Shown here piece by piece: positions 12,585-43,503 of a DNA stretch of 64,000 nucleotides. Every line of letters starts with the position of its first letter. Position 1 is the first letter of the stretch. The stretch lies in contig OX359250.1 in assembly GCA_947179485.1 (NCBI GenBank), positions 36,858,783 to 36,922,782 of the forward strand. Reading direction: 5' to 3'. A program made the position numbers and the translations under genes. The notes under the pieces are model-generated. The model ran no database searches. It was given only the letters and a program-made list of their open reading frames with translations, and was not told where the DNA came from. The DNA comes from Allacma fusca. Taxonomy: Eukaryota > Arthropoda > Collembola > Symphypleona > Sminthuridae.

Positions 12585-13452
12585 ATGCTGAACGTGGAGA
12601 GAATTGAAAGGACAGTCTCGCGTGAGTCTACAATGAATGTCCAAGAAAAGACTGACATTGATGGTGATGCCATGTTACTCATTTCTAAGGAAATGTACCC
12701 GAACCCGGGTGGTGGGAGTGCTAGCTTAGATAAAAGTGACTGTTGTAATAATGGTGATGACATCCTAGCAACCCCTGTCCAAGATCTCGACTATGGTGCA
12801 TTTCCCAGGGAAGCTCAATGTCGTTGTCATCTGAGCTACTCCTGTGACTACCGGACGGTGGAGGTCCGGTGGAAGAGCCTGGTTCCGAGGAACAACCACA
12901 ACCACCACCACAACCATAATAATAATAATAATAATAATGATAATAATAATAGCAATAACTGTATTTGTCCACCACCAACTAACTGTTGTCACTGGGACTG
13001 CTCCTCGTCCCATGATCCACCTGCTACCTTCAGCAGTTCCAGTATGTTCAGTTCCCAAAATCCAACCACCACAACCACCACCACCACCACCTCCTCCTCC
13101 TCCTCCCCCTCGTCATCCACAGCCATTATTGAACTGAGGAGAAGGAGATACTCGTCATCGTCATCCTCAGTCTCGTCATCATCCTCTACCTCCTCCCCGA
13201 CGTCTCCTCCCACCTTCCTCCCAGCCGTGGCTGATGGAGTGGAGGTGGACAACGCCTGTCTCCGTGACCAGTGTCAGAGATGTAGTTCACGGAAAGAGGA
13301 CGGAGACTTTTTAAGTAATTTTTGTGATCTTAACTGGAGATGGAGGAGGACCCGAACTCATTTAGAAGCTCAAGACTTTAGTGTGACGACGATGTCTGTA
13401 TGGAAATGGGAATTCACTTCGAAAGTTCGTCGATTTATGGCTCGTTTTTCAG
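12585..13452 (+). CDS. First coding exon of a large-intron gene; low-complexity, Cys-containing N-terminal region
   Basis: Codes for 289 residues plus the first base of codon 290. An in-frame TGA (12582-12584) lies directly before the first ATG. That ATG has T at -3, whereas Met17 (ATG at 12633) has A at -3 and may be the real start. Composition: acidic and Gly-bearing residues 17-72; a Cys/His patch at 79-88 (CRCHLSYSCDYR); Asn/His tract 103-125; Cys clusters at 126-139; Thr tract 161-169; Ser-rich tracts 170-179 and 190-204; an Arg run at 185-188; Cys 225, 230, 233 and 247; and a basic, Trp-containing end, WRWRRTRTH at 251-259 then KVRRFMARFSG at 280-290. The exon ends at CAG/GTGGGT, a good donor, in phase 1. 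The open frame runs on past the donor only into a CT microsatellite. It continues in exon 2 at 43378. No family domain is recognised; disorder and homopolymers dominate. The N-terminal location and basic end before a hydrophobic segment suggest a cytoplasmic tail. The alternative is that this is mostly leader, with translation from exon 2. Confidence 0.72.
12892..12953 (+). repeat. Coding trinucleotide repeats (CAC/CAA then AAT) giving a His/Asn tract
   Basis: CAC/CAA units grade into AAT units interrupted by GAT and AGC codons, producing residues 103-125 of the protein. The AAT part is nearly pure, so replication slippage is likely and the tract length may vary between individuals. Confidence 0.92.
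13063..13110 (+). repeat. Coding (ACC)n-(TCC)n repeat giving Thr and Ser tracts
   Basis: ACC/ACA codons encode nine consecutive Thr, then TCC codons encode Ser. Further Ser codons at 13151-13195 are mixed TCA, TCG, TCC and TCT, unlike a fresh expansion. Confidence 0.92.
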
Positions 13453-13458
13453 GTGGGT
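13450..13458 (+). other. 5' splice donor of intron 1
   Basis: CAG/GTGGGT, with the intron beginning at 13453. It agrees with the donor consensus at most positions and splits a Gly codon after its first base. A (CT)21 tract starts 36 nt inside the intron. Confidence 0.7.
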
Positions 13459-13486
13459 TTGCAGTTATTCTTTTGCTCTATTTTTT

Positions 13487-13488
<2 letters not shown>

Positions 13489-13530
<42 letters not shown>
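13489..13530. repeat. (CT)n microsatellite just inside intron 1
   Basis: About 21 pure CT units in the sense orientation, close to the donor. Confidence 0.97.
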
Positions 13531-13533
<3 letters not shown>

Positions 13534-14097
13534 TTGACTCTCTTCATTACTCCTACCTACATCACTCTTAGTTCGTCAGCCTTTTGCTCAGTTTTTTTTT
13601 ATCTCTCTCCAACCTTTCCAAAAGCCTATTTAAAAATTAAAATGACTTCTTTTATTTTGTTTTCATTATTTCCCCAGTTCACTACTCACTACTACAACCA
13701 TACTCATATACATAGTTTTGTGCTGCTGTAAAAATGTAACACACATCCCTTCCTTTCCCATCCACCAGAATACGCATATACATATTTGCATACATACTTG
13801 CATGCAAGGCAAAATAATATTTTTTTAAGATTGTCGTAAAGAGAAATATCTCTCTCTCTCTCTCACTACTGCTGTAATAATTGATTTTACATTGTTTCTT
13901 ACCACCCTACACTTCAACTCTCTGAAATTCACAGGGATTCCAACTACTGTACTGTATTCTTGGGGTCCTCGTGCATACCAGTGTATCTGAGTCTCCATCT
14001 TTAAAACCTTTTTATGCTTAAGTGTGCTTTCCTGGGATCAAAATGCAATATTTTTATATTTTGGTCGTAAAAAATAAAGCATCTTTGGAGAATTTCT

Positions 14098-14118
14098 TCT
14101 CTCTCTCTCTCTCTCTCT
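14098..14118. repeat. (CT)n microsatellite
   Basis: About 10 CT units. Confidence 0.95.
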
Positions 14119-14879
14119 GAAGCTCCTTCCCATAAAATGAACCGTAAGGTTGCGGACTTTTAACTATCACAGATTTACTACAGGCATAGTTTTGACCTTA
14201 GGGAAATGTTAGGTATGTAAGATTCCATTTTCATTTTTTGTTATTGTTGTTGTTGTAGTAGTAGTAATAATACGACAGAGTTGTACAGTCCCCTTGGTGG
14301 CACGGGTCATTACAATCTATGTTATGGTTTCATTCGAGAACAGACAAAAGTATGTTTTGCCGATTAAGGGGAATATATAGGAATCCTATTTTTTTCTCTC
14401 AAATATTTTAATTATTATATGCAAATGTAGCACACTTAGAACGTATACTACTTTTACATACATATAACTTAAGATTTTATGAGTTTTTTCCCTAACCTTT
14501 TTTTTTTGTTTGTTTTGCATTGAAACTGCTACCGCGAACTGTATATTGCAGTGTTTTTTTGTATATCGGGGGGAGTAATTAAATAGTTTTGGTTGTCTTC
14601 TCTCTCCACAGGGTTCAATGCCATTTTTTGTACTCTCTCACAGTGACATTCGATCGTCCACAGAGGCTCTATTCTATACATGGAGACACACATGTGTATA
14701 CATATGCTCATACAAAACTAGAATTCCAAAAAGCCACTGGGTCCTATGTCATATAGTAAAGTTGGTAGCAGAGAAAAATGTATGAGGTTGTTGTGTCGTA
14801 GTAAAAGTGGTTCCGTCATAATAATAATTATATTGTGTATCTTACACTCACACAAGGGAAAAGTAAAATGACTTGGGGT

Positions 14880-14897
14880 TTCTCTCTCTCTCTCTCT
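14880..14897. repeat. (CT)n microsatellite
   Basis: About 9 CT units. Confidence 0.95.
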
Positions 14898-15110
14898 GTA
14901 GTCATGAAACAATGGTCTATGGCCTGATAGGATCTACATCTGTAGAAAATCTTGACAGAATTGTTTTCATTAAGTATCAGTAGGACTATATGCTTTGTGT
15001 AGCATTACATGCCTCTCTGATGTCTATCGACACGTGGAAAAACCATTTCGGACTCTGTCCCAAGTGTAAAAGTCTGAGTGATTGTGTGCTGAAGTGGCCA
15101 TTCGTACACG

Positions 15111-15130
15111 TCTCTCTCTCTCTCTCTCTC
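15111..15130. repeat. (CT)n microsatellite
   Basis: About 10 CT units. A second short run lies at 15443-15458. Confidence 0.95.
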
Positions 15131-15770
15131 CCTCACTCGGTCTCTCGAAGGGATTTTTCTTTATCGTGAAGGCGGGCGAGAGGTAAAGAGAGAAACGATT
15201 GTGCAAAATTTGTGACATTATTTTCTACTTCGTCATGTGTATCAAGGTACAAGGGTGTACATTTTACAGAGGGAATTTGAAAAAAAAAAGAATTGTTCGG
15301 GTAGATTGGAGGTGACTGTATGAATTATGACGAATCAAATCACCATGTCTGAAGGTGTGGTTGAAGGCATTGCATTTTGAATAGAATCTGATATGATAGG
15401 AAAGCGAGAGAAGACGATTAAGAACCCTGGTTTTTCTATCCGTCTCTCTCTCTCTCTCCCTCTGTGTTTTAGGACGTGTATATGTGTATGTATTATTTGT
15501 ACTTTTTTTTTTGCATACTATGGATATATGGAACAACCCGAAGTTTTTCCTTGGGAGCGGAGTTCCTCTCGCTTGGAAAATAATATATAACTTTATCGCC
15601 AGGGGAAATTTTTTATTAGCATTCCGTGCAGAAAAATTATCGAAAAATTGCATGTTTAATCTACAACTCACGAGTTTTTTTTCTTGATGCGATTCTCGTT
15701 CACTTTCACACATTCCTATAATATTCCTACCGCCTGTCGGCTAGAGCCCGATTGTGCTCAAACTTTTTCC

Positions 15771-15772
<2 letters not shown>

Positions 15773-15808
<36 letters not shown>
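15773..15808. repeat. (CT)n microsatellite
   Basis: About 18 pure CT units. Confidence 0.97.
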
Positions 15809-15811
<3 letters not shown>

Positions 15812-16986
15812 TTTTCTTTCTACGGCCCATTATCATGTATGTACCTGCATTGTGTGTCTGGGGTTCCCTTCCCTTGTGCAAATACATATGAAACGGGACT
15901 CTCTGGCTGGGTTTTTTGGGAGAGTATTACCGGTAATGCATCGACGGCAATCTCTGTCCCCCCCCCCACTCATAACATACAGTACTTCAGACGATGTTTC
16001 CTGTACGACTGCATATCATGCCATGAAATACTTTTATATGCAAGTAATAATGTTGTTCTAATGGACAGTGTTATTACCAAATGGGGTTTTTTATGTAAAT
16101 ACTAGATTTTCGAGGATTTCCCGACTCTGACCAGCCCCGGTATTTTGTATGTAATTTACTAAGTTCCACTATAATAATAATGGGTAGCTCTCTGGCGGAT
16201 TTTAAATTTTTCAAAAAAGAATGGGATTTGCTGTAATGGTATGTGTAGGTACATGTACCTATATATGTGTGTCTGTGTTTGTGTCTGTGTCTGTGTGCCC
16301 ATTTCGTTCCATGAAGGGAGTGAGGTAGCTTTAAAAAATATTGGATTCGCATATATCTATATTAAATTGTACATGCTCGGTGATGGAAGTCCCTTGTATA
16401 TAATTATGTACTCACTGACAATTCAAATTCAAATAATAAATTGCATTGTGTTTCCTTATTGCGGATTTCTGCCCGCAGTAAGAGCATAATAATATATAAA
16501 AAATAAATGCCTCTTTGGCAGGTACAGCGGAAAGAGAGTGCAAACTTTGTGGGCGCATTTCCATATAGGAACCATGTGAGTAATAATATAGGAGGAATCG
16601 TATAATTTTTTTCCCCTCTCCTGGTATAGTTTTAGAGTATATTGGATGCCGGGCGCTCAGAAGTGCAACATGAACTAAACGAAATGAATTACCATGAATT
16701 TACAGCCCCTGTACACAATGTATTTGCATGTACATGGTGAGTAAGGATTGTATGGGGGATTTATGTAAGTACAGACGTACATATGTAATTATATGTATGT
16801 AATGCAGTTACGCTTCAAGATGCGTGCTATTAAAGCATTGCATTGTGTCTGGATAGCCCATAGAACTTGTCATTGCATTTCTCAATTTTTTGATAATGTC
16901 CAGTTAGGCATAAAATATGTAGTTCATTTTCCTCGAAGTAAGTTCAGTCACTCACATACACATACACACACACGTATATACATACA

Positions 16987-16990
<4 letters not shown>

Positions 16991-17058
<68 letters not shown>
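16991..17058. repeat. Long pure (CT)34 microsatellite
   Basis: 68 bp of uninterrupted CT, preceded by CACATACACACA-type repeats at 16952-16987. Confidence 0.98.
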
Positions 17059-17060
<2 letters not shown>

Positions 17061-18173
17061 CACCTCACATATTATTCTCTAACGATTTCCACCACCGTCG
17101 TCTCCTTCACATAAAACCTGACGTGGTATTTTCATGTTGTAATCTCTCGTTTGTATGCACACACATTTATGGAGACTACTATACAGATGAACATACATGT
17201 AATTATATGGGACTGTGTCTGAAGGACTTCTAAATGGACAAAACTTGACTAGCTTTGACTTTTCAAGGAATTACAATTTATTATTCATATATACACGCCT
17301 AGCAGAATCACCGTTTTTCCTCCATCAATGAGTATGGAAGTTACACTTTTTCCTCTCCCATCCGACGACCACGATCGATTATTCTGCTTTTTCCTGGTAA
17401 TGTGCGGTAATTTATATATATATATATATAGAGAGAGAAAACTCTTCCTTCTAATTCCCTCTCATGTCCCTGGTATGTCTGCGGACTTGGTCATACTTAC
17501 TTCTGAGGCCGTATTTCCTTACCAGAGGCAAGTGGAATTGTGTGAGTAGAAGGAGTAACTTGTATATGTCCCTATAGTTTCCAGCATTTTGACAGATGAC
17601 AGCGCCCAAACTTTTTTTCAGTCCGGATTTTCTTCCCAGTTATAGTGCTTTTAGTTCTGTCTGGATTTTACTAGGTAGGATGCTACCTGGAGCTACATGA
17701 ATTATTATAAAGGAAATAACTTGGAAAGAGTGCTTCTTCCAAATTATTGGCTGAGTTGGGAGTGAAATGGTTTCTTTCGCTAGGAGAGGCCCTGGTGGAA
17801 TTTATTGTATTATTTTGTGTATGATTACTGGGAAATTTGCTTATAGTATATGAGGGACGGATAAAAGGAGGATGTCCGTTGTCACGAGATTCCCTTATAG
17901 ATGGATGTATTGAATGAATGAAATATTAAAATAATTCTCAGGGTCGGATTGATTCCCTCATACACGCAGACTCTTTTCAAATTGTGTCTCTATCTTTGAG
18001 ATTAGCAAGTGTGTGAGTGGATCGTATTTTATTTCCCTTTAGTAGCGTGACACTATAGGTCACCCCGACCTCTGCATGCATGGTTTTTGTGAGGAGTTTT
18101 AATCCTTTCCAATAAGCAAGAGCCCTGTTGGATGTACAGGGGAAGATAGAGAGGCTCTATTTTAAATTAAAGG

Positions 18174-18174
<1 letters not shown>

Positions 18175-18204
<30 letters not shown>
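18175..18204. repeat. (GA)n microsatellite
   Basis: About 15 GA units, against the prevailing CT orientation. Confidence 0.96.
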
Positions 18205-18206
<2 letters not shown>

Positions 18207-18843
18207 AATCTGCGTAAATAATTCAAGGAAATTGATTTTCATTTCATGGATCAGTTCCTGGCCTGTAGGAATTTCCGTAATTTGAGTCCTTTTGTGTAAC
18301 TACTGGAGTTGTTTGGGAAATAAGTAGCTTATATTATGGAATGGAGTTAATTAAATACTAAAGCTGTTGTAGTAACTGGAGTGGGAGCGTTGGATTGTAT
18401 TTGAGGGGAATTATTATATTATTATTTTTTGTGGGGGTTGGGGGGGGGTGAAGTCAGTTTTTTTGGTAAAGAGGATTTTTCCTGAATTCTGCAACACTGT
18501 TGTATGTAAGGAACTAGTGCGGTCATCAGAGGACTCACTTGTTAGAATAAAACCACCTGGTACTCTCTACCCCATATGTCACCCTGTGTGAGTGGAAGTT
18601 ATGAATACACAAAGGCTGCCTTTGAAAATTAGCCGGGGGCGGACAAAGTGTAAAAAACCATGTATTTAGCGTCTGATTTGTTAAACAATTAGAGTCGGGA
18701 TACGAAAATGTTTATGTGTGGCTGTGTGCTCAAGGGCCGTACGAGACCTTATATATATCCCCATCAAAATAGCCGTAGATAGAGTAGGGACTTATGATCA
18801 AATGATAAGACCCACACATATACACACACTCACTCACACACAG

Positions 18844-18869
18844 ACACACACACACACACACACACACAC
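18844..18869. repeat. (CA)n microsatellite
   Basis: About 13 AC units, with looser CACA/CACT repeats from 18811. Confidence 0.95.
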
Positions 18870-19444
18870 GATTGACGAAGAACGTTTTCCTATTCACATA
18901 ATGTAAATAGTAAGACTTACCACACACAACCACCGTAACCAGACACAAACGATGTAAGTGGATATACATCATAGGAGATACATGCCGAAGAATTAGTGCT
19001 GAAAAGGGAAGAATGGATTTAGGAATGAAAGATAAATTAGCGTATGCATGACGATTGCATGAAAGGTTACGATATGAAAGGAGTGGAGGAGGATGCTGAG
19101 GATGCTGCTTTGCTGGAGGTAGCGAGATTTATTTTTTTAAACCTCTGTCCGGCATATAAGTATACACACATAGGATGCAGACACTACAAGTGTATGGAGG
19201 TAAATATACTAATGGATTATAACAGAGTTTTTTATTTTGAGGAAATACCCTTCTTGTTCTATCTATTACCCCTCTCTTTCTATCTCTCTCTTTCTCTCTC
19301 ACTACAGCATCTATGCCTTGTGGATCCATTCATAGGAATAATTATTCGAGGAGGAGGGCTTCCTCATATACATACACACACCTTTTGATGGACTCCGTGT
19401 GTATTAGGACAGGAACTTATTTAGTGGGACTTATTACACATATG

Positions 19445-19466
19445 TAGGTAGGTAGGTAGGTAGGTA
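19445..19466. repeat. (TAGG)n tetranucleotide repeat
   Basis: Five TAGG units and a partial one. Confidence 0.93.
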
Positions 19467-20421
19467 TATGCTCAGGTTATATAGGCACGCCTGTGGTGGG
19501 AGTCATTTTTTGAATGAGGCCCTACAGGAATACATGAGGATATATGCATCCATTATGTTACTTGTTCTGAGTTGCTCAGATTTTGAGAGTAATGCGGGCA
19601 TTTTACAACATCATTGTCAAGAGGGAGGTCGTCCATCCGTCACTTCCTTCCGATGTGACATACCGGAAACCACTCCGTCACCGTCACCACACACTCTTAT
19701 CCTCATATTTAAACTCGCTCTCTCTCTCTCTCTCTCCTCTCTGTTAGGTTGTTACTCTTGAGGGTATATTCCCAGTTTTTAGCAGTACCCCCCAAATGCA
19801 GTTTTCCCAACATTGCCTCTCAAAAGCTGGAACTGTTCCGATGTAGTTTTAACCTTTTTACTCACGTACTCTGTAACTTGTACTGTGCCTGGCTCTTATG
19901 TATATTAAAGGTTTTTAAAGCTAACTCTGTCTCTACCTTAAACTTTCCGTAGGTGTGTAAAAAAAAAACTCCGCAGCCAAAGAACATATTATCTATTTTA
20001 GGTAGAAATACAAACTGAGACATGCTCCGGTTTCCTATACACTCACAAAATCCCATATGTTCTACTATAGACGCCTCAACATAGGGATATCCTCAGCCAA
20101 GTTTCTCTACCGTAGTTTCCTCTACTGTACTAGTATGTACTACATACGGATAGGCATCATTGTGGAAGTGTGGAAGGATAGATATACATAGGAAGTTTGT
20201 AGAATTTTGGTGTGTATATGCAAAGGTAATTACACCAAAATGTAGGCCTAATTCCCCAAGGGTTTAGCGTTAGTTAATATATAGTAGTGTTGCATTGGGT
20301 AATGTTGTTTATTTTATTTGGACATTTTTTTCCCCCTTGGCTCTCAAAGTAAGTGTAAAGAATTTTGTTTGATGTGAGATACTGGTGCATATGTTTTAGG
20401 ATTGGAGAGCATCCTACTAGT

Positions 20422-20451
20422 ACACACACACACACACACTCACACACACAC
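20422..20451. repeat. (CA)n microsatellite
   Basis: AC units with one CT interruption. It lies about 100 bp before the long GT array at 20549, in inverted orientation to it. Confidence 0.92.
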
Positions 20452-20545
20452 CGTCCCATCAAGATTTAGATACATTCCGGCCCGACCGACAGCCCACCGT
20501 TGATTGTGAGCCTGAGCGTGATAAAGTATGCATGTTGGCTGGAGG

Positions 20546-20548
<3 letters not shown>

Positions 20549-20598
<50 letters not shown>
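20549..20598. repeat. (GT)n microsatellite
   Basis: About 25 uninterrupted TG units. Confidence 0.98.
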
Positions 20599-20600
<2 letters not shown>

Positions 20601-22598
20601 TGCTTGTGTGTGTGTACCTGAGTAGTATGTACATACATACTGGAGTGAAGGTGCTCTAGTGTGATTGTTGTATGAATACAAGAATTGCTCCATATTTGTC
20701 CATGATGAATATAAAGTTGACTGAGAAATTTGTACAAGAAGCGTGTTTTCCCTGTAAAATCCACTATACCCAAGAGTCCTAAGTATAGATACTACTTGAA
20801 TGGGATTGGAAGGAGGTAGAACTTGATTTAGTTTTCGAAGGCGCAACTTTTTCCGTATCTCCTCATAATCACCTGGTTATGCGTGCACAGTAATGTTACT
20901 CATTGAATTATCGTATGTACACTACCTATAAGTATAGCACGGAAGGAAGGACTAGGAAAAAAGGGGAATACTTCTCAGGTGGCTACTCCGTCAGTCAGCC
21001 TTCCCAATATATATCTGCTATGTATTGTAACTGGGGGGGAAAATATCTCCGTAATTGTCAGTAGGTATAGATACATACCTACATATGTATACTCTTTGGG
21101 AGTCTCTGGGGCAAAAGACAGTTGTTGGCACTCGTCTTGCATATACAGGCTCAAGAGCTGGAGAGAAACTTGGTAATAGGAACTGTGTGTGTACTTATAC
21201 ATATGTGTGTACATGTGTGTGTGTGTATGTGTGTGTGAAGGTACCTCCGAAAACTGAGGCTCAGGGAAGTGTGTAAGGAAGGAAGGGTATGTATGACATT
21301 TGATGAGTCCCATATCACTCTGTGACTGACTGTAAACTCCCTCCTTGTATATACAAGGTATTTGATAGAATTGAGCTAAAATAGGCATTCGTCTCTGAGT
21401 GTATGGATGTATGTTTACATGAAGGGATGATAGTATGGAGTTTTGACTATCTGTGTATGTATATCTATAGAAATAGGAATATATATTGAGAAAGTGGCCG
21501 GCTCGTTCTTGAAAACATGTGTTGTAGTCCTCAGACAGAGCGGACGGATGTCAACCAATGACTTCTTTGTTCTCTCTGTTCATCCTCAATTTTCTGCCTC
21601 GGGAACGTTTCTTGTTGACAAATTGACTATTAGGTGTTTTTTATATTCCAATTGCGCTCATCGTCCTGGCTTTATATTTTATTTTCTCAAACGCACTCCA
21701 ATCTTTTCAACAGCATCGGACATAAACACTCATGATAGTTGAGGCTGTCTTCAAAACTTCTAGAGTATCCCATTCATTCATTCCTACAATTCCGAATGCA
21801 TATGAATTTTTTTTATTTATTTATATGTGTAGATACATAGAGATTACAATGCTGGGAAATATAATTATTGTTCCTGGTCGTCATCAGGTCTACATTTATT
21901 TAATAGCTACACAATTCACAGCTATATATCTACATTTCAACACTTGCTACTTGCCCATGGTGTGGGGCCCCATCATGATGGGAAGTTGCATGAGAGTCAA
22001 AATTCGTGCAATCTTTGATGGGGGATGGATACCTGTGTTTTAGAAACTAGACCAAAATGAAATTAGCTCAAGGAATGTTTTTTTTTATTGTACACAGAAA
22101 AGAAATAATTTCTTGAATCCATTTATAATAATAAGGAACATTCCATTAGGATTTCATTTTATGTAGATAGGGACTGTTCCCTGTCATTGTTGGTTTATTA
22201 TTATTAAATTTTAAATAGTTGGCATGGATTTGAGTCCTAGTAATTACTACGCAGAATTTCCACAGGTTTAAGTGTCCCTCCAGTCTTCCTCAATAGCATA
22301 GAGGGATATTTATGTCGTGTGACAAATTAAAACTAGTTTTTAACTTGTGTCGGAGTATGAATGTGCATGTGTGTACATACGTATCATTATGGTATGTACA
22401 TGGGTGTACATGCCCTGTGTGTGTGTAATTACATGCTATGTACGAGCATGCCAAGATTTACGAGTGTGTTTTCATTCTCATTGTTCAGCTCACACGTATA
22501 TGTACATTATTTTATTCTTTAGTCTCTGATAATTGTGTTGTTGTCATCGGAGTTGAAAACAGTTTGTGATATGTGTGGCAGGGATATATGTGGAAGTT

Positions 22599-22623
22599 GT
22601 GTGTGTGTGTGTGTGTGTGTGTG
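22599..22623. repeat. (GT)n microsatellite
   Basis: About 12 GT units. Confidence 0.96.
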
Positions 22624-23456
22624 GATGAGTAGGAGCAACTCTGTTGTTGGGGATGGTTGTTGACTATATACTGTCAGTGTACTTACACTCTCTGATCTAT
22701 TTGAGAGGAGTGTAGGAAAGGACGGAGTAAAAATATGTGGCTTGTGGAGATATTTCTTGAAAATCAAATCATTGTAGCAAATGAAGTTTTAGTCAAGTTG
22801 AGGGAGTAAGTCACACAGGCACCAAATACAATGGAAGGAAAATGCGTATGTACGTAATATGTAGCGAGGGAAGTGACTTGAGTCCGAGGATGGTACGAAC
22901 TCCAACGAGACATGCCGTGAGTGTGCTTCTTAACGCTCTCCTAATTCCCCAACAGAGAAATTCACATTCACCTCGTCAGTTGGTCTGCTTCTGGACCTAA
23001 GCATTAACTTGCGGCATTTTCAAATGATTATAAGCAATAAAAAAGCAAAAGTTATTATTTTCCTTACGACTTAACATGAATGATGCTTCTTTCCTTTTTT
23101 GTCTTGTCAGTCTCTCTCAATGTATGAGGTGCTTATGGGCCTCTCCGGTATGCAGCTCATAGGAGACTATACAGTTCTCTCTCTCTCTCTCTCTTTCTGT
23201 GCCTATGTAAGGACACAGGGAGAAGGAACCTATGTAGAGAGCGTAGGTTTTGCACAGACATAATATATACACACTCACACAAACTTCCAACTTAATGGTT
23301 ATGTACATGAGGGAATTAAACTTGGACAGAAATGGTCATTTTAATGTTGGCTTTGTGATAAAAAAAAACGTGAAAATCCGTGATTCGGGAATTTCAGGAT
23401 AAATTTTATTGTAATAGCTCGTAAGTATATGGACACTGTGTGTGTGTGTGGATGGT

Positions 23457-23458
<2 letters not shown>

Positions 23459-23496
<38 letters not shown>
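23459..23496. repeat. (GT)n microsatellite
   Basis: About 19 TG units, with a shorter GT run just before it (23437-23450). Confidence 0.97.
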
Positions 23497-23497
<1 letters not shown>

Positions 23498-23949
23498 AAG
23501 GTATATTTTAGGACTTAAATGGTGTAAAAGTTTTCGGAGAATGTGTGTCTTTTCTTCTTCTTTTTCATCTTATATTCTTCGCCTTCTTCTTGTTCTTTCT
23601 CCTCATATATCTCGATAATAAGATAAAAACAGAGGTCTGCGTGTAATGATATTGCCTCTAAAAAGATGTTCAGGGAAGTTTGATGTATTTGTGTCCATTT
23701 TGTTCCTTCACGGGTTTTTTTTTCCTTCCAATATCAGTCACTTCCAGGAGCCACACACATCGATGAGAGATGCCGAAACAAGCTTGGCGTGATGGTTCCT
23801 TACGCGTCCAGTAATAGTCTCAAGCCTACTACTGACGTCTCTCCTTTAAAAACTACTCAATCCACTTGAAAAAAAAAACTGTATTATTGAGAAGTTTTTA
23901 AGGGGAATATTTACGTTTCCAAACAATTGAGGAAAATTGTTAGCTTGGA

Positions 23950-23953
<4 letters not shown>

Positions 23954-24026
<73 letters not shown>
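23954..24026. repeat. Long pure (CT)36 microsatellite
   Basis: 73 bp of uninterrupted CT, the longest pure CT array in the window. Confidence 0.98.
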
Positions 24027-24029
<3 letters not shown>

Positions 24030-24189
24030 CTTGAAGAAGCAATTGCAGACTCTATAGTATGGACGAAGTTTGGGAGGTGGGGATGAGGAGTGAGTGACTG
24101 AATGAGAGGAAAGACAAGGTGTTTAAGCCATTGGATCGCACTTGCTTTGAAAAATGCCTACCTTTTCGGTTTAATTTTTTTCCCCCCTC

Positions 24190-24223
24190 TCACTACTACT
24201 ACGACTACTACTACTACAACTAC
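24190..24223. repeat. (CTA)n trinucleotide repeat, imperfect
   Basis: CTACTACTACGACTACTA pattern with CGA and CAA variants. (CTA/CTT)-type arrays recur at 54950-54966 and 63431-63478. Confidence 0.85.
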
Positions 24224-24462
24224 TTCACTTCTGAATCTATATATCCACGATGCTCTGTTTTCCTGTTGTGACCTTTTCTTTGAGCTTGGGTTGATTTATG
24301 AATTTGTTTAAGGAATTCGTCGCCCACTAATTTACTGGACGTGCCGCGAGTCACTTTACCTTTCAGTTTGTACATGGGGTTAGAGAGTCAGAGGAAAGGG
24401 ATGGAATGCCTCTTTTAGTACTGTACTGGTTATTCTCCTGAGTCTCTCCATATCTCTTCCTG

Positions 24463-31793: not shown

Positions 31794-32902
31794 TCTCGTG
31801 TGAGTCTGATATGATTTGGGAAAAATAAGTATTTAGACGTGAGACAAATCTCTTCTACATGTAAGTTTTGGAGGGCATTTGAGCAGATTTTATTTTTGCT
31901 ACTTTTAAGCAAGCCAGCAGCTGTAGGGAGAAGAGCTGTACACAGTCAGAGTAGAGACACAGATCCGTACGGAACAAGCTGTATGGAAAAAAAGCACGGA
32001 CTAATAATTTCTTGTGTGTGGGGCGTAATATGAAAATATTTTTTGGTCGAGATAACTAAGTGGAGTTGGTGTGTGTGTGTGTGTGTGTACGTGTTTGTGT
32101 GTGCCTCACAAACATGGTGCTTTATGCATTGTAAAAATATTGTCAAGGTTTTTTGGTACATGTGTATCGCAATGCATGGGATTTGTACGGGATCTTGTAA
32201 CAATAGTTTTGGAGGAGAAAGAGTATAAGTGTATGTATGTCTGTTGTGTGTGTGTCTGTCTGCCTCTGTGAGGATTATATGAGAGGAACAAGTATATGGA
32301 AATACATCTACATATAGATACATATGTGTGTTACATGTTCATAGAAAGATATGTACAGTGAAGGGTAGGACTCCTCGTAGTCGGCTGCTGGTTTAAATAT
32401 GACCAAGTTATTCAAAGTGAACTTAAAAATATGGAAGAAGATTATGTAAAATGCAAATTTGGGTTAATGACAGCAACAATGAAGTTTTCTCATTTGAACC
32501 GTACGAAGAGAGTTCCTTGTGTGAAGCTCCCAGAAGACCATCGGTGTTGATGTGAGTTGTGGTTTGTTTGTCAAAAATGTAAATTACTCCTGAGGATGAA
32601 CGCCAGGCCAAGGGATGGAAACTTGGACTTCTCCTCATCTCTCAAACTCATACTCTCCTTGGAAAAATTTTTTTTTTTTTGCGGGGTTTTTCAAATAATA
32701 ATTGAAAAAAATAAAATTAACCGGCTCATTTACATGAGAATCATCACGGAACTTTTTCATGCCATTGTGTGGGCAATAATGGTGATTTTTACCCCGCTCG
32801 TTCCATTCCCATTTGCATAGACTCTCGTGTACCTTTGGGAGTGGCTCTCTTCTCTCGTCTTTTCAGTTTACGGGGTTTCATACGTTACATTATCATCACT
32901 AC

Positions 32903-32938
32903 TATTATTATTATTATTTTTATTATTATTATTATTAC
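32903..32938. repeat. (ATT)n trinucleotide repeat
   Basis: About 11 units with one T-expanded interruption. Confidence 0.95.
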
Positions 32939-33580
32939 TGCTCTACGTCAGGGATTTTATAAAGTTGGAGCTGACTTGAGTCTGGAGTGCATGAGGGGCT
33001 CCTCCGTGTATCTATACATATAGTATGTATGTATCTATAGACATAAGTGTACATGGAAGTGCACTGGGTCGATTGTCTCATGTCTTACAATTTCAAAGTT
33101 CATTTCCCTCTGGACCTTTTCCCTGATGCTGATATCCAATAAATAACTCAAATGATGAATAATGCTCAGCTAATCTAATTGTCATCTCTCTGTCCTCATA
33201 ACAGGATTTCTTGAGCACTCCACCACTGTTCCGGGATTTGCCAAGAATCCTTAATCTAGTAATTGTAGTGCTTATGGAGTGCTTATGAGGGGGAGCTGGG
33301 GCTCCACTTGTAGTCAGGCCAAAGGATCCTTCAAAATACATAATTTTTGCTATCAGTCCATCCCTGTAATTAAATAGATACGCCAAAGTGTGAGTTCCTG
33401 CTTTCCTGCCTCTGACTGACTGACGAGGACTTCTGCTGACATGTCTCATGATCGATGATAGGACTGAGGGACATTGTCACAACAAATTAATACAATGGGG
33501 AACTGTTGCATGGAATTGTGAGAAAAACTGGATTGTAGGAAGTTAAATGGACTTACATGGCTGGGGAGCATGTCATTGAT

Positions 33581-33585
33581 AGAGG

Positions 33586-33620
<35 letters not shown>
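33581..33620. repeat. (GA)n microsatellite
   Basis: GA units with one ACAG interruption. Inverted relative to the CT array at 33982. Confidence 0.95.
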
Positions 33621-33621
<1 letters not shown>

Positions 33622-33978
33622 CACTACTGAGAAAATAGAGCTGGGAACTAGGAATAATAGAAAAATTAGACAATGTTAACATGTTTCCTTATTTTCGTCC
33701 TCCGATGTATGAGATGATTGAGTTAAGAGGATCACATTACAGGTTCTCACGTTGCGTAGGTAGGCAAATAAATAAATGAGGAAAGAGAGGATGGATATTG
33801 GGAAGTCCTATGATGAGGAGCACCAGGTATACATGTTTGGAGTAAATGTTAATGGCAAAACGTGTAATGACTATGCAGGCATTCCTTTTGTCTCCAACGG
33901 ATGCTGCTGATAACTTTTATCTTTATGATGTATGCCTTTTTGTTTTTTGAATATTTGTGGATGGAGGAGGAACGAGTC

Positions 33979-33981
<3 letters not shown>

Positions 33982-34039
<58 letters not shown>
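33982..34039. repeat. Long pure (CT)28 microsatellite
   Basis: About 57 bp of uninterrupted CT. Confidence 0.98.
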
Positions 34040-34043
<4 letters not shown>

Positions 34044-34826
34044 TGAGTCTATATGATGATGAGGTGAAAGAAAATCCAGACATTATTTCACGCTTTGGCT
34101 TTGGTGACAAATACAATCATATGGGTGTACTACTACACACTTCACTCGTATCATAAGACTCCCTCGGGTTCTGGGTTCTGTGGATGTGTCTAATTATTAT
34201 GTATCTGCGAAGGGATATAATTATGTATGTCACTTGGCATTTGTCTCTGATGAAGTGGAGGGACCCCGGTGGACTGCTCCATGTCGATACTTAACATGGC
34301 TCTAAGTACTAATTATATACAAGTATTGCTATATGTACTTGGTTGAATTTAGTGGGGAAGATTGTCAAGTATTAATTAACTGCTGTGGTGTTCCTCCGTC
34401 GAACATCTCCATAGGCTTCATCAGTTTGGTCATGTCGATGGAATGTGCACACACTGATGTATTGATAAAAAAAAAAAAGTCGTCACAACATACAATCTCG
34501 ACTTGCTGATGTAACTCAAAAGGATACAGTGGAATTAGGTTGAATGCTCATTGAGACAGGATCGTCTCCTGATATATTCCCTTTAGTATAGACCCCACTA
34601 GTCCATACTGTCGAAGATCTCAAAGACCTACTCTCATATCTTCTCCCTGAGGTTTCTCCCGTCTACAAATATTAAGTTAAGTTGTGCGGAGCTGAGAATG
34701 GAATCTGTTACCAAATCGGTAGAGGCCTTGAGAGTCAGACCTCATCACCGAAACTCCGGGGTTACTACCCTGCTTGTTCCTATATAAATCCTATAACTTG
34801 AAGCATTCAGCTCTCGGTGGAGTTGG

Positions 34827-34851
34827 GAGAGAGAGAGAGAGAGAGAGAGAA
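34827..34851. repeat. (GA)n microsatellite
   Basis: About 12 GA units. Confidence 0.95.
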
Positions 34852-36038
34852 AAATTATATGTCTATATCTATACTTTTCTCAAATCTTATGACATGACTC
34901 CAGTCTTTGAAATATAAAGGGATTTTATAGAAACTGTATATACTGTGTGAGTACTAAACTTGATCTTGAGGGTCACTTACTCCCAATTGCGCTACTGAAA
35001 TTGAAAACTAGCTTTTGATAAGGGAGAAACATGCACGTCTAGTTAGCACTTGTTTCAATTGATTTCGGTTTACGACCTTTTCAAATTATACTGCTGTCGA
35101 GTTTGTGCTCAGATTGTGTTTCAACAAACGTGTCTCTCTCCTTTCGACATCCAACCATGGAGCCTGATTTTCTCTTTTTTTTTTCTTCCAGGGTCTTTCT
35201 TACATGCTAAATCACCCAATCCTGATAAAATTTAGCCCTTATATGTATGAGCTCTCCTGTCTCTAGTCTGTGTGGATTTATTCCTTTGGGATTTACTATC
35301 CCTCTCTCATTTGTTGATGATGAGGGATTGGGTGGGAGCTAGGACGTGCGTAGAGAACGTCCATGATTTGTCCCATATTTTATACACGGGATAATCATGT
35401 GTAATAGGGATGGATGGGATGTAGGAGTCACAGCCAAGAAAGAAGAATTCCATGTTGGAATCAACATTCACAAATTTTGTCTAATTAGAGATTCACTGTA
35501 TTATCATTATGGGTATCAGGACTCTGGCTCTCTGTGTCTGTCTGTCTGTTTGTATGTGTGTGTGTATGTGTTTGTATGTAGAAATATGTATTTGGAGTTT
35601 CATCCATCGTCCTCCTGCTTGTTTGATTTGCAAAAGGGGAGCTGTCACGTATAATTACACTTGATCATATAAATGCAGTGGGATGGGAATACTAGAAGGG
35701 TGGAAATATTTTGGCGACTTCACCAACCTGGTGTAGTCGTGTCATTATTTCATTATAGCCGAAATTTTCATGTGAGTATTCCCTTCTCAATGTCTCGAGT
35801 GTGGAGACGCTCACTCGGGACTCAGGAGAGAGGTTCCCCTCCATTTATTATTACACAGATGCATACGCCTGCTCCTAAAACTATAGGTGGTGAGTTGTGT
35901 GTATGCAATTTGGAAGCATTGTAATGAAGGGGAATAGTTTTAAAGTAGCTACATAATTCTTCTGGATTGGCTAGATACTTTTAGATTGTTGACAGTTTTG
36001 CGTGGAGGTTATACATGACGCCTAATTCACTACATGAA

Positions 36039-36041
<3 letters not shown>

Positions 36042-36098
<57 letters not shown>

Positions 36099-36112
36099 TT
36101 CTCTCTCTCTCG
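36042..36112. repeat. (CT)n microsatellite, interrupted once
   Basis: About 27 CT units to 36096, then ATTT and a further short CT run. Confidence 0.97.
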
Positions 36113-37450
36113 CTCCATCTCCTTTGTATCGACACCATCGCATCGTGCTGGCATGGATTTAATTCTTCACTCACATTTATATGTTTCCGTGTTATTCTTT
36201 TTTTTTGCTTTTTTTTAGCTGGTTGTTTCTCTCCCGTCAGAGCATTATTATGTGTGTAGCTGTGATTGTGTCGGTCGGTCGGTAGTTAACGAGACAAGAC
36301 AGTGTGAACTTACATGCCAATATAGAGAAGCAGCAGACAGTGTGCGAAAATTCGCCCTGTATTCCAAACGTGCCAACCACAACGTATGAATGGTAACTGG
36401 TGGAGTGTAGAGAGAAGGCAAACTAGTTTCCATCCAAAATCCGTACTCTTTTCAAGGAGTATGTATCTCTGTGTGTGTGTGTCTGTATTTTTTGTCTCAC
36501 TTTGAAATCGTCTGCATAGCCCGGCGTTTGGTAATTTACTTATCCCTGGTTGAGGGAATATGTATAGATATGTACACCCAAGTAGATTTTAAATAGTCTG
36601 TATCCGATGTGGGTTTGGACTATTACAGCTATATTTTTTTTAATACATACATTGATCCATATTTATCCATATGACAGGGCTTTTTTCTACACAGATTCAT
36701 ATTTGGTCTCCTCCTCGTGTCTAGGACTACATACACTCCGATATACATAGATCCGCGGAGTTGCCCTGCATTATTGTCCCGAATGAATGAGACATTTCCC
36801 TTTGCCTTGAAATCCTGTCTGATGCATAACGACTTAATGTATCTAACCTACAAAAAAAAAAATTTTTTTTCTTTTGGGAGCACGTATATACTCCACAGTT
36901 CAAAAAAAGACAGGAGACAAAAGAGTCAACTGCATGCGACTAGAACTACATAGTAGTAGTATATTGTGCGAGTAAGTGTTTTCTGCTCAAATTTATATTT
37001 CCCTCTAATACCTACTGTGCGCTACTACTGTACTACACTGTACTGTAGGAGATATATGTACTATTTTTTTTAAACTTTCCAAATCCTCTGTATCCATACA
37101 TTTGAGTACACGTAATGGATATGTTTTCCGACTAGCGCTATCAATACATCTAGTTAGTAAAAAAAAAAAGAAAAGAAAGAACACCGAACTTGCATTGTTC
37201 CTATGTATCACATACCTCACCTCAACTTATTGCACAGGGCTGGGTGTCTAATCTCAAGAGCGAGCAGACATGTCTAGGTCGTTTTCTCTTTAGGTTTCTC
37301 CATATCATCTATTCTTAACACACCATGACGGGTGTGTGATATTCTATTAAACCGATTAATTAGTCTTGCCCATAATGAGCCAGTGAAGCCTAAAAGTGTT
37401 AATTACTATTTTTGTAGCATATATATATATTTTTTTCTTTTTTTCCCTGT

Positions 37451-37451
<1 letters not shown>

Positions 37452-37489
<38 letters not shown>
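37452..37489. repeat. (CT)n microsatellite
   Basis: About 19 CT units, preceded by TATATATAT and T-runs. Confidence 0.97.
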
Positions 37490-37491
<2 letters not shown>

Positions 37492-39431
37492 GTCTTGTTT
37501 AACTCGTAATGCTTCCTGTGTTACACTTTTTTCGTCTCGTGGACTCCAAATTTCTACAGCTGCTCCCTTATACATAGGTAGTCGCTGTGTATGTGTATAC
37601 TGTACAGAGGGAAGCTTGAAGCTTGTAATCTTCAAATAGGAAATTCCTGTAATATAAATATCATTGGATTTTATTCTAGACATATATTTTAGTATAATTA
37701 GTTCACTCTTACAACACGACGCTCCCTGTCCGCTAGCTCCCACCATCACATTCACATATGATATTCCTACTAACTAAGTACTCCTCTAACTGTATCTCCT
37801 TCAATTTTGTAGTGGTACACTGAGACCAAGAGAAAAATCGAAGGTAGTCTTTTGATGAGAACGATTATATTTTCTCAAACTTAATGCTCCAAGAAATATC
37901 GCAGTTTCTAAATTAAGCTTGTTCCCTACTAAATGTCAGCTCAGGAGTGTGGAGCTACTACACAGGGGATATTAGACTTTCACGTGCGAATTCCAACTCA
38001 TTCAGTCTGTACTTATATGTAAATACATATGTGCCGGACCCATGTAATTATATCTATCTAATATATATACATTTAACTGAGAGACAAGGATGACTTATAA
38101 ACTTTCCAAGTCATTATGACTAATCATCATTTGAGTACATGCGGAAGTACTAGACTTTATTTGTCATGTGTGTCTCATCCATAGGCTTCTCACACTCGAT
38201 CGTACATGTAGTTCAATTGTATAGAAAAAATTCCCAGGCCGATGGAACTCTTTGGAACATGGAACGTCCCTTACGTAAATTTGTTTTTCTTTCATTTCTC
38301 ACCTCATGCGAAACAGTAGTTTTGGTCATACTGTAATTTTTATGACGGAACTCTAGAATATTCCTCATCTTGACCTGCTTTTGTCCATTTATGGTGTACT
38401 GTAAAAAGAAACCCCTTTCAATTCACAGATCTGATTAGGCATGTTGTAGTAAAACTGTATGGAGCTCCATTATATAAAAGAATCAGCATCCACGGCCTGT
38501 GCAAATTTCATAACGTGGCTGAAATATTTTAATGAACAATGCTGTGATTTATGGGGAAGGATTTGCACTGGCTGGGACACTCACTTGCATAGGGACGGAG
38601 ATTGTCCTGAGTGTGAGTGTATTCAAATGAGAGGCAAATACATTGTTAGTAGTTTTGTTACAACAGTAATATAAAAAAAAAAAAAATCTTAAGATCTTGT
38701 GGGAGATTATCGCCGACAGGGATAGGAAAAACGGAAGCTCAGGCTAGAGACTTGCAGCCGGGTGGATGTAACAAAGTCTTTTGACTTGAAGGGAGCAATG
38801 GTTTCATTGTATTCTGGGGAAACAATGGGAACAAATGACTTCAGTGGGCTAAATGGGTATTTGCCCGTGTGACCATGATTGCGCGGAATATTACATTGTC
38901 ATTTTGAATGATTAAATTAAAGGAACCACATGTGTAATCACAGAAAATAGGGAAATCGACTGGTGACAACCTCCGTGATAAAAAGAATCACAGTAGCATT
39001 GGACACAAAATCATGTGTGGTGAGGGGGATCCTTACTGTTAGACATTGAAGTCACTCTCTGGGCAGTTAGTTTTTTTTATCCCTTGCCTTTTGGCTATCC
39101 CTATATTACATATATGAGTGTGTGTGTGTAATTTACATGAATGTAAAAATCCTCAGTCAGGGATAGACACCGGCAAGGGATCAACCTAACCTTTTACTTT
39201 CATGGTCTCCCAGAGAAAAATGGTGGTTCGTGACAACTATTCTCTCTTTCACTGTAGCCGTTTATAATAGTGTCATTCCTATCCACACGTTTAGTCCCAG
39301 AGTCCAATCCCATATAACTTCTGCCACCTGCAGTTCCTTCAAGAATAGTATTTGTGATAGTTCGTCATTGAGAATTGTTTCAATTTGTTACTTTTTTTTT
39401 TATAAAAGATCATTTTTGGTTCCCTCATGGC

Positions 39432-39436
<5 letters not shown>

Positions 39437-39470
<34 letters not shown>
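39437..39470. repeat. (CT)n microsatellite
   Basis: About 17 CT units. Confidence 0.96.
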
Positions 39471-39473
<3 letters not shown>

Positions 39474-39838
39474 TCTCCCAGAGTCTCCTGCACATTTTTT
39501 TTCTATTTCATGGAATATTATGGAAATGCATTTAAAATAATTGAATTCTTTATTTGAAATGTTTGTCTTGGGGTGTGATACCGTCTCATCCTTCTCTTCT
39601 GTCTGTATGGGATAGCACACTAGTGCACATGTGAAATTAATTGAATGCAGACATCATGCGGGTATGATTCAGAGAAGGCATGGTTTTCCATTTAGTTTTT
39701 TTCATTTAAAAAATAGGATCCTTGCTGTTTAGTTCTCTTGTTGGTTTTACTAATAGAAAGAAGAAGAAAAAAAAACCTACTGTGGTATTTTACCTTTCCA
39801 GAATTTTTCTCCCTTTTTATTTTATTTATACATATGAA

Positions 39839-39865
39839 CCTCTCTCTCTCTCTCTCTCTCTCTCT
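39839..39865. repeat. (CT)n microsatellite
   Basis: About 13 CT units. A short GA run at 40069-40087 lies inverted about 200 bp downstream. Confidence 0.95.
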
Positions 39866-41261
39866 TCACTGAGGTTGCTTCTTTTTTTTTCATGGATATA
39901 ACTTTGAGTGAAGACGATGTACTCAAAGGGATATCAATTTCTTTCATTTAGAACAAACTCCTACCACTCACTCTTCTCTTGGGTATGTCTCGTCAGGGTG
40001 AATTGAATAGTATCACAATGCAGGGAGTTAATGGTATCATGTTTGTTTGTCTACAACAACAGTAGCAAGAGAGAGAGAGAGAGAGAGGGCTGCTGAGAGC
40101 CAGGGCTGAAGGAATAAAGAATAGAGGGGGAAAAATAGAGTTACTTCCCATCATCAAATTCTTGTAGTAGTAGTAGTAATAATGATAATGGTTTATATAT
40201 AAAAATGAGTGGACTTGAAAAGAATCAGTGTCAAATTATTTACAAGAGCAAAATTTTTATTGCATTTATGCTCTATGTATGTATAATTATCTATGTACAT
40301 AGACTTAAGCCCCCTGGCCGTCCATATGTTTGAGTAAGTCATTTGAATGGGAAATATTACTCTCGAACTTTATTCTATGATTCTTGGCAGAAAATTCCTT
40401 CCTCTCTGTAAGGATATAGAAAATTGTGTGGAGTCTTATCTGTATAATAGGTAGGATCGAGGCTTGGGAGACTCAGAGCGATCTCTCAGTCCATATAGAA
40501 TATAAGATATGTGGAGGGACTTGGGAGTATAGTGGGATCCATCATTGACAATGGGTGTGAAGTAATTCTAAGAAGAAAATCAAAGTCAGGCCCCATATGA
40601 TGTTATTTGTGTGATTTTTTTTTTTTTTGAAAAAAAAGGAGGGAAATACTAGTATGCGTGAAGAGGGAGAGAAAATGAAGATTTCCTGGCAAGGTATGTC
40701 GGAGATCCTATATGGGATATATGGATGTACATACAGACATACCTGCCCAGTGAATATCTATGGACCGTATGGACCTCTGGTCGTTATTTCGTTATTATCA
40801 TCATTATTATTATCACTGTCAAAGAATTAGCTCTTCCTTCATAGGCCATCCAGCGTGAAAGAATCCTTTCATCCTGTACACCTAATCTGGTATTTACAGA
40901 TTTACTTAGTGTGTGTTATATCCCTTGATTATTTACCGAAGAAATCAGTTCCTTCTGCAAGGTCATCTTCGTGTGGAGCTCCGACGGAATCCACATATAT
41001 ATGTGCCTGCCTAGGCCCTCATGGATGGAATGCCGTACATAACGTTTACATTACTGACGATGGGTTCTCATAACATGTAGTTGTTACTAATCTTCATAAA
41101 CACTGTTGATGATGAGGGGATCGTCAATTTGTCACTTTTGTTACTTTATGTTGAATCATCTTTAAAATTGAAAAATAACCTAGCAAATAGTACATGTGAA
41201 GTCATTACTTCCAACATGAACCCTTCTTAATTTCACTATCAATCTACTTTTTTTACCCCCG

Positions 41262-41285
41262 TCTCTCTCTCTCTCTCTCTCTCTC
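41262..41285. repeat. (CT)n microsatellite
   Basis: About 12 CT units. Confidence 0.95.
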
Positions 41286-41831
41286 CCTCTCTGTTGAAAA
41301 TGTGAAATGCCTCTTGCATAAATAGTCCAAATTGTTTATCTAGAATTTTTTTTGCTATAGAGTATGTGTGTGTGTGTGTATGTGTGAGTGTTTATGTGTG
41401 GTGTAACTTTCGCTGAAGTAGATTTGATGAGATTTGGGGTACATTACTCAACTTCAATATTTATTTGCATGCAAAGTTGGCAGGTGTGTGTGTTTGTGGA
41501 CTGAATCTGTAAGTTTGTATTAGATGAATCCGTGCGACTGTGTAGGTTTGAGGATTCGTCGAGGAAACGGATGTGTATTCGCACACCTCATCATTTTCTC
41601 AATTGCACTCCATCCTTCCTAATGACAGTTTTGAGCCAATAGCTATACATAGATAATGCATGGAATGCCAGGCGGAAAAGTGTGTGTGTATGTAATATGT
41701 GTGTGTGTATGTGTGTGTGTGTGGATATGTGTGCAGGTGGAAGAGAGACCTAAATGTTTTGTGACGTGCATGAGGGGGACAAAAGAAGCTTTTAATTTTG
41801 AATTGTGTCACACGAAAAGTTGTGACCTCTG

Positions 41832-41853
41832 CTCTCTCTCTCTCTCTCTCTCT
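41832..41853. repeat. (CT)n microsatellite
   Basis: About 11 CT units. Confidence 0.95.
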
Positions 41854-42246
41854 GTGGGACTCCCTCCTATGTGTACATACATACTTGTAAGGTCCATGTA
41901 TATAAGGAGGATCTTGCATGACTATATCTACTTATAGTATAAGTATGTGAGGAGGATAGGATGGTTGGTGGAGAGACGGAGGGCAAAAAGGGGGAAGTGA
42001 ATCATGGAGTAGAACATGGTGCAAAAGATCATTGAAAACGGAAAAGATGTGCGTTCATTCATTTTGGACGGAATTGCGGCACTGCATACCTTGCAGGTTA
42101 AAAGGATAAAAATGTAGTTAGATACTAGTGAGGGAGCGCGTGATTGTACATATATAGTACACTGATATGAGTGTGTGTGTGTGTGTAAGTGTCCGTGGAT
42201 ACATATAGTATGCTCGTGAGTGTGTCTATATTGACCCATGGACGCA

Positions 42247-42281
42247 CATACATACATACTACATACATACATACATACATA
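42247..42281. repeat. (TACA)n tetranucleotide repeat
   Basis: TACA units with one CT interruption. A shorter similar array lies near 42844-42880. Confidence 0.92.
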
Positions 42282-43347
42282 GGCGAGTCTCTATGAGTTG
42301 AGGACGGAAAAGTAGAATGAGAAGGAGAATAGCCGTAGGTCAATTGTAATTCAACCTCAACTATCAACGGAACCTATCTCCCCATAGCTAGGCCGCATGG
42401 GATTGAATAAGAGTAACACTTAGAAATTATATTATTACCAACTATACCACTTCTGAATGAATTTTATTGTTGCTACAACCATTTGGATCTTATTTTACTA
42501 TCCTCAGTTTTTGCTGGGCATGACGTAACTTCCTCTTTCCAAATGCACATTCTTGTAGGTTTTACCATCACCCCCAAAACTCTCTGCATGAATGTTGATT
42601 TATTTCCATGGGGCTCAGGTGTAGTGTGTAAAGATATGAGGATCAGGATAGTATGCTTGTGTACAGCCTTATTATGTATCTATTGGACGTATGTACCCTG
42701 AGTCTTACTGTAACTGATGTGTCTCTGAGCATGTAGGAACAGACATTGTTCCTTCAAAGTAAATTGAACATGGATTTTTATATAGAAGTTATAAGTACGT
42801 GCCTGTATTATATATAATAATTATATATAGATACTTATACATATATACATACATACATAATTACATACATACATACATATACACACACACACACTGGTTG
42901 AGTCTTCTACCTACCCTTGGACTCTCAGTACTACCACCACTCTCCATTTACTACGGCACTCTTTTCTGGTCTCTCCTCAACCTGTAATAGAATTGTTATG
43001 CGGCATGACTTCCACTCAAGCTTTCCTCTTCCATTACCATAATATTCTGTAGAATGATTATTAAGAAATCTCTCCTACGCTACATTTAATCATCATGATG
43101 GTCAGAGAGTGAGGCCGAGGTTTTGACTTTTACATAATATAGATAGATACATAGATACTTATAACGAATGTATACATCTTTTGGGTCAAGACACTCGGCA
43201 GGGTTTAAAGTTTCATTTCTTGTAGATACCTTTTTACTTGTATAGAGTAATCTCAAATGGGATGGTAAGATGTAATTATTATGAAGACTGAGCTTGACAA
43301 CATATTTGATATTGAATATTTTTAAAATGTGAAATATTATATCTACT

Positions 43348-43378
43348 GTTTTTTTTTTTTGTAATTTTGTTTTCCAGG
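43348..43378 (+). other. 3' splice acceptor of intron 1
   Basis: A T12 run (43350-43361 region), then GTAATTTTGTTTTCCAG/G. The polypyrimidine tract and the final TTCCAG are near ideal. The exon begins at 43378. Confidence 0.8.
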
Positions 43379-43503
43379 GAGACGACGTCGACCCCAACGA
43401 CGAGCATTAAACTCGTTCTCTGGTTATCCATGGGCGAGAATGACTTCATTCCTCTATGTCATCTTCGTTGTTGTGACTGGATGCCTTCGTTTTCAGAGTG
43501 CCG
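43378..43503 (+). CDS. Second coding exon: Arg-rich juxtamembrane segment plus hydrophobic signal or anchor
   Basis: 126 nt, 42 codons, phase 1 at both ends. Its first two bases complete the Gly codon begun in exon 1, and the frame stays open to the donor CCG/GTAAGT. It encodes RRRRPQRRALNSFSGYPWAR (residues 291-310), then MTSFLYVIFVVVTGCLRF and QSA (311-331). The 14 residues 313-326 are hydrophobic enough for a membrane segment. The positive cluster on the N-terminal side predicts N-terminus inside, that is a type II signal anchor. Alternatively the internal ATG at 43440 could start translation, making 311-331 a cleavable signal peptide. A phase-1 boundary right after a signal peptide is usual in secreted Ig, fibronectin-III and similar modular receptors (family knowledge, not seen here). 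The domain-bearing exons lie beyond the window, so the gene is not named. Confidence 0.75.

Follow-up and report, generated by a model that had tools for sequence, protein, structure and literature searches.

A candidate two-exon 5′ end, with an Arg cluster and a hydrophobic segment behind a long N-terminal extension, in the springtail Allacma fusca

Does an open reading frame in the genome of the springtail Allacma fusca continue, across an intron of about 30 kb, into a second exon with an Arg cluster and a hydrophobic segment, and what kind of protein would such a pair of exons begin? We examined this question in a stretch of 64,000 nucleotides of contig OX359250.1 (assembly GCA_947179485.1, positions 36,858,783 to 36,922,782 of the forward strand), here called the window, within which all coordinates are counted. 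What lies here is most probably the ordinary 5′ portion of a large animal gene. More specifically, we put the chances at about even that the exon pair forms the beginning of a gene whose product is secreted or membrane-bound, in an animal with many microsatellites, with exon 1 providing an extension and exon 2 a segment for targeting to the endoplasmic reticulum (ER). Exon 1 would then encode a disordered, Ser/Thr/Asn-rich N-terminal extension, and exon 2, after the ~30-kb intron, an Arg cluster and a hydrophobic segment directing the rest of the protein into the ER; that rest would be encoded farther 3′, probably past 64000. In a full-length product the Arg cluster would keep the N-terminus cytosolic and the hydrophobic segment would act as an internal signal or signal anchor, and a start at the ATG at 43440 may yield a second, ordinary secreted or receptor form. 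The proposed features are as follows.

12585-13452, forward strand: proposed first coding exon, 868 nucleotides, 289 open codons plus G; N-terminal extension
12633-12635, forward strand: second in-frame ATG (Met17), with A at −3
12885-13229, forward strand: low-complexity middle, residues 101-215; Ser, Thr, Asn and His together make up 63%; AAT, ACC and TCC triplets abundant
13453-43377, forward strand: proposed intron, 29,925 bases, microsatellite-rich
43378-43503, forward strand: proposed second exon, 126 nucleotides, GG plus 41 codons plus G; phase 1 in, phase 1 out
43380-43403, forward strand: Arg-rich patch RRRRPQRR, 6 Arg
43440-43442, forward strand: in-frame ATG, candidate alternative start, MTSFLYVIFVVVTGCLRFQSA, A at −3; three codons 5′ of the hydrophobic core
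43449-43487, forward strand: hydrophobic core FLYVIFVVVTGCL, 13 residues, a putative ER signal or signal anchor by hydropathy

Exon 1 opens with the ATG at 12585, immediately preceded by an in-frame TGA, and runs to CAG/GTGGGT at 13452/13453. Its frame is open throughout, and the other two forward frames contain 9 and 37 stops over the same interval. Exon 2 begins at TTTTCCAG/GG (the bases preceding 43378 are TTTTGTTTTCCAG) and ends at CCG/GTAAGT at 43503/43504. When both exons were recounted, the coordinates, splice dinucleotides, phases and codon counts were as the initial annotation had described them, and the Gly codon that it had proposed to be completed across the junction is formed by G plus GG. 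The joined frame comprises 331 codons and one base. Its product contains the 115-residue low-complexity middle of exon 1 (with an ATA/AAT array at 12916-12951), 15 Cys, of which 14 are encoded by exon 1, the RRRRPQRR patch and one hydrophobic core. The same annotation had claimed an Arg-rich patch and a single hydrophobic stretch, and both are present, with RRRRPQRR directly 5′ of FLYVIFVVVTGCL. The mean Kyte-Doolittle hydropathy of FLYVIFVVVTGCL is 2.66 over its 13 residues and 1.65 over the best 19; an Arg follows the core, and the positive charge sits N-terminal to it. An ER signal with a cytosolic N-terminus usually carries an Arg patch ahead of its hydrophobic core (the positive-inside rule). 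Because such a patch occurs here together with an in-frame ATG, we interpret the two exons as the beginning of a gene whose product is secreted or membrane-bound. The anatomy is observed directly; from it we infer transcription, the junction, membrane orientation, ER targeting and the use of either start. Within exon 1, the ATG at 12585 has T at −3 and abuts an in-frame stop, whereas the ATG at 12633 has A at −3, and translation may therefore start at residue 17.

Exon 1 probably exceeds what chance would produce. Its G+C (GC) content is 0.477, against 0.387 for the whole window, and only 41 of 63,133 segments of 868 bases match its GC count, all of them overlapping exon 1 (starts 12583-12704); the richest segment of this length that does not overlap it reaches 0.438. 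Around exon 1 the GC content is 0.16 (100 bases 5′ of the ATG at 12585) and 0.28 (100 bases starting at 13585), with a value of 0.45 at 13485-13584, 3′ of the exon, where there is a CT array. The open frame, continued beyond the donor, is 328 codons long and exceeds the frames of all 120 simulations; that length was reached in none of 60 order-2 simulations (longest 269) and none of 60 order-5 simulations (longest 294). These simulations contained no triplet-repeat tracts, an omission that favours the real sequence, as about 115 of the 289 exon 1 codons lie in a triplet-rich stretch. By splice-site weights, the exon 1 donor ranks fifth among the 4,327 GT dinucleotides. Amino-acid log-odds favoured the claimed frame over residues 1-100 (−0.2 vs. 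−9.1 to −22.8), and it is in these residues only that they support it.

The evidence for exon 2 beyond chance is fair. With the same weights its donor ranks second of the 4,327 GT and its acceptor sixteenth of 3,780 AG, and its summed splice score of 22.4 is the highest among 97 forward-strand candidates, that is, open segments flanked by splice sites. When lengths of 51-500 bases and scores of 5 or more at both sites were required, there were 21 phase-1 candidates 3′ of exon 1; of these, exon 2 has the highest summed score, the highest peak hydropathy and the most CpG (10), but not the highest GC content. The CpG maximum of the window per 126 bases falls on exon 2 as well, at starts 43378-43383. 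However, a maximum of at least 10 also appeared in 42 of 100 simulations, and it carries weight only by coinciding with the splice-bounded interval. On neither strand did another open, splice-flanked candidate overlap exon 2, even at low thresholds.

Several observations weigh against a coding pair of this kind. The best summed splice scores in the controls were 21.7 (77 minus-strand candidates) and 21.3 (126 candidates on a reversed control), so close below the 22.4 of exon 2 that its splice score by itself proves nothing. The log-odds of exon 2 in the claimed frame are −10.3, the lowest of the six frames (the other five range from −0.7 to −7.4). Over residues 216-289 of exon 1 the claimed frame, at −8.7, scores below both of the other forward frames (−7.6 and −5.4), and the minus-strand frames range from −8.7 to −15.1. 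Counted only to the donor, the 289 codons of exon 1 are fewer than the 294 of the longest order-5 simulated frame. The phase match between the exons is likely anyway: with two of the three frames of exon 2 free of stops, a donor picked at random would be compatible in roughly two cases out of three, which makes the in-phase join weak evidence. No relatives were found in Pfam, in the PDB (exon 1) or among viral and prokaryote contigs (residues 215-331). Finally, the best von Heijne cleavage score at the hydrophobic segment is 0.25 against a usual threshold of 3.5, as scored on residues up to the end of exon 2, and of the 921 stretches in the window that begin with ATG, 272 scored at least as high.

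Part of this evidence would suit an explanation in which at least one of the segments is non-coding, exon 1 being an open stretch inflated by triplets and exon 2 a chance AG...GT interval. The nearly equal control scores, the triplet-rich share of exon 1, the frequency of high CpG maxima in simulations and the mixed composition tests all point that way. However, exon 1 holds both the GC peak and the longest open frame, just as exon 2 holds both the splice and the CpG maximum, and we regard this explanation as quite improbable. Somewhat less improbable, if still unlikely, is that both exons are real and belong to different genes or transcripts, or that exon 1 has its splice partner past 64000. 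The junction is one that we infer, and its agreement in phase would arise by chance at the two-in-three rate given above. Against such a separation, 43378-43503 is the best of the 21 phase-1 candidates by both summed splice score and CpG, the two exons lie on the same strand, and the scanned stretches between them hold no convincing domain.

If the exons are joined, what would the hydrophobic segment do? A signal anchor stays uncleaved, spans the membrane with about 20 residues and has its positive charge on the cytosolic side. The initial annotation had suggested either a signal-anchored membrane protein or a receptor with a long leader. The layout fits both proposals and does not decide between them, because the core is short for a membrane span, the cleavage score is poor and no exon 3 was recognised in the stretches scanned. 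The in-frame ATG at 43440 adds an option that the annotation had not raised, namely an ordinary short signal peptide that may be started within exon 2.

That option can also be carried further, at the expense of the extension. The ATG at 43440 could be where the working protein starts, giving it a normal signal peptide of ~20 residues; exon 1 would then be a leader, mostly untranslated or translated only occasionally, or one of several alternative first exons, and the long form would be rare or degraded. This ATG is in frame and has A at −3, the 13-residue core is closer to the core of a signal peptide than to a membrane span, and human proteomics sets are depleted of extensions that precede signal peptides, according to excerpts of a preprint (PMC11623489). 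On the other hand, 289 open codons, here at the window's GC peak, would make a long leader, an out-of-frame ATG (43430) precedes the start, and cleavage within exon 2 scores poorly. We consider such an arrangement possible and the foremost of the alternatives, yet clearly less probable than a gene in which exon 1 supplies a translated extension. The out-of-frame ATG (43430-43432, TCCATGG) lies ten bases 5′ of the in-frame one, in the second open frame of exon 2 (MGENDFIPLCHLRCCDWMPSFSEC).

The reading of the pair as an extension followed by an ER-targeting segment can be compared with known systems. Teneurins, for example, are type II membrane proteins, held by a signal anchor and extending a long N-terminal tail into the cytosol. 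Like such type II proteins, the joined product would have a disordered N-terminal tail, a basic patch and one hydrophobic segment; unlike teneurins, it has a core of just 13 residues, and the window yielded no recognisable lumenal domain. A receptor family label (Ig-domain proteins, teneurins and others) was considered and not adopted, as the window offers nothing that bears on such a label. The nearest published design that we found, by analogy, is the extended Arg-cluster signal peptide of mammalian PTPRJ/DEP1, for which excerpts of one study (PMC7725344) were used. There, the extended signal peptides of placentals are given as 87-92 or 147-150 residues; in mammals 10-14 conserved Arg, earlier shown to attenuate translation, are located 11-12 codons past the start, and ZNRF3 and NOTCH3 are named as similar. 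Shared with PTPRJ are an N-terminal extension, an Arg run, a hydrophobic signal far from the N-terminus and more than one possible start. In the joined frame, if the splice is real, an Arg cluster likewise stands between an upstream start and a hydrophobic signal, and it is shorter than that of PTPRJ. In contrast to the PTPRJ design as excerpted, about 310 residues precede the core here, RRRRPQRR with its 6 Arg lies ~290 residues past the first ATG, and the arrangement is known from one sequence.

A second parallel is offered by the C1Q-like proteins, again as described in excerpts of the preprint (PMC11623489), where C1QL4 is a conserved exception to the depletion of pre-signal extensions in human proteomics sets. 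They too have an in-frame extension with basic residues before a canonical start and signal peptide. However, they are described there as having an ATT start conserved in vertebrates, a conserved basic motif and a V/A/G-rich segment, whereas here the starts are ATG and no homologue is known. Signal peptides of at least 40 residues are common, with 296 vertebrate entries in one count (PMC2447879, excerpts). The exon pair resembles the PTPRJ, C1Q-like and long-signal-peptide cases in layout, a likeness that we draw by analogy.

In animal genes it is common for early introns to be large and for the signal segment to have an early exon to itself, and for this reason the locus, as it stands, matters little. 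If it is true that exon 1 is translated together with exon 2, the product would have a very long Arg-cluster signal extension. A more far-reaching proposal is that this Cys-bearing, Arg-ended extension of ~310 residues, on its own exon 30 kb upstream, serves in an invertebrate gene to choose between a form with a cytosolic tail, or throttled translation, upon a start in exon 1 and the ordinary secreted or receptor form started at 43440; we consider this a long shot, the least probable of the ideas put forward here. Narrow text searches returned titles in which no invertebrate protein with such an extension was named, which is not proof of its absence from print.

We also searched for a family, for relatives and for further exons. 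With exon 1, the Pfam matches had expectation values (E) of 0.34 and 0.75, and neither reached the curated cut-off; exon 2 had no match. In the PDB, with which exon 1 only was compared, five matches (E 0.0011 to 0.83) were obtained and none was accepted as a relative; four of the five end in or lie on the His/Asn-rich stretch, where we take them to be probably tags of constructs, and one lies on a Thr/Ser tract. Residues 215-331 gave 11 pattern matches among viral contigs and 74 among prokaryote genome contigs, none of which was confirmed; since these collections consist of viruses and prokaryotes, an absence of relatives is expected. The Pfam scan of the window covered, at E up to 0.1, 429 of 430 stop-free stretches, the remaining one (12585-13568) being that which holds exon 1 and was scanned separately. 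These stretches were 173 on the forward strand from 43400 onward with at least 33 unmasked codons and 257 others with at least 58. The best matches among the families listed were DUF3915 (1.8e-05 and 9.9e-05) and Atrophin-1 (0.0016), with the others at E of at least 0.0037; all were taken as low-complexity, microsatellite or chance matches. The scan of these stretches therefore indicated no exon 3, transposon or other gene in the window, and those within the proposed intron gave no convincing match. The window contained no tRNA and no Rfam match at the gathering threshold. A TATAAAT at 12500 was given no weight, being one of 25 TATAAAW motifs on the forward strand, and a bacterial promoter scan, which is not meaningful for an animal gene, was not used.

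The product of exon 1 has no confident fold when modelled from its single sequence. AlphaFold2 returned a mean predicted local distance difference test (pLDDT) score of 38.5, with 246 of the 289 residues below 50, and the helices that it predicted within residues 223-287 are of low confidence. A strong acceptor-like site (score 11.1) was noted at 13225, inside exon 1, and the segment 13225-13452 is the second-best splice-flanked candidate of the forward strand (score 21.6). Given this site and this rank, a shorter internal exon at 13225-13452, in the same frame as exon 1, is possible.

Finally, the exons lie in a repeat-laden background. Short tandem repeats make up 5% of the window by mask (3,232 of 64,000 bases), and the direct repeats listed belong to microsatellite families only. 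By eye, CT/GA and TG/CA arrays predominate across 1-64000; they are dense, and many are 30-75 bases long. Among decapods, excerpts of a published comparison (PMC7878876) describe short tandem repeats as abundant in some species and not in others, with 19.5% and 23.9% in two penaeid shrimps, 6.9% in Eriocheir sinensis and 0.41% in Procambarus virginalis.

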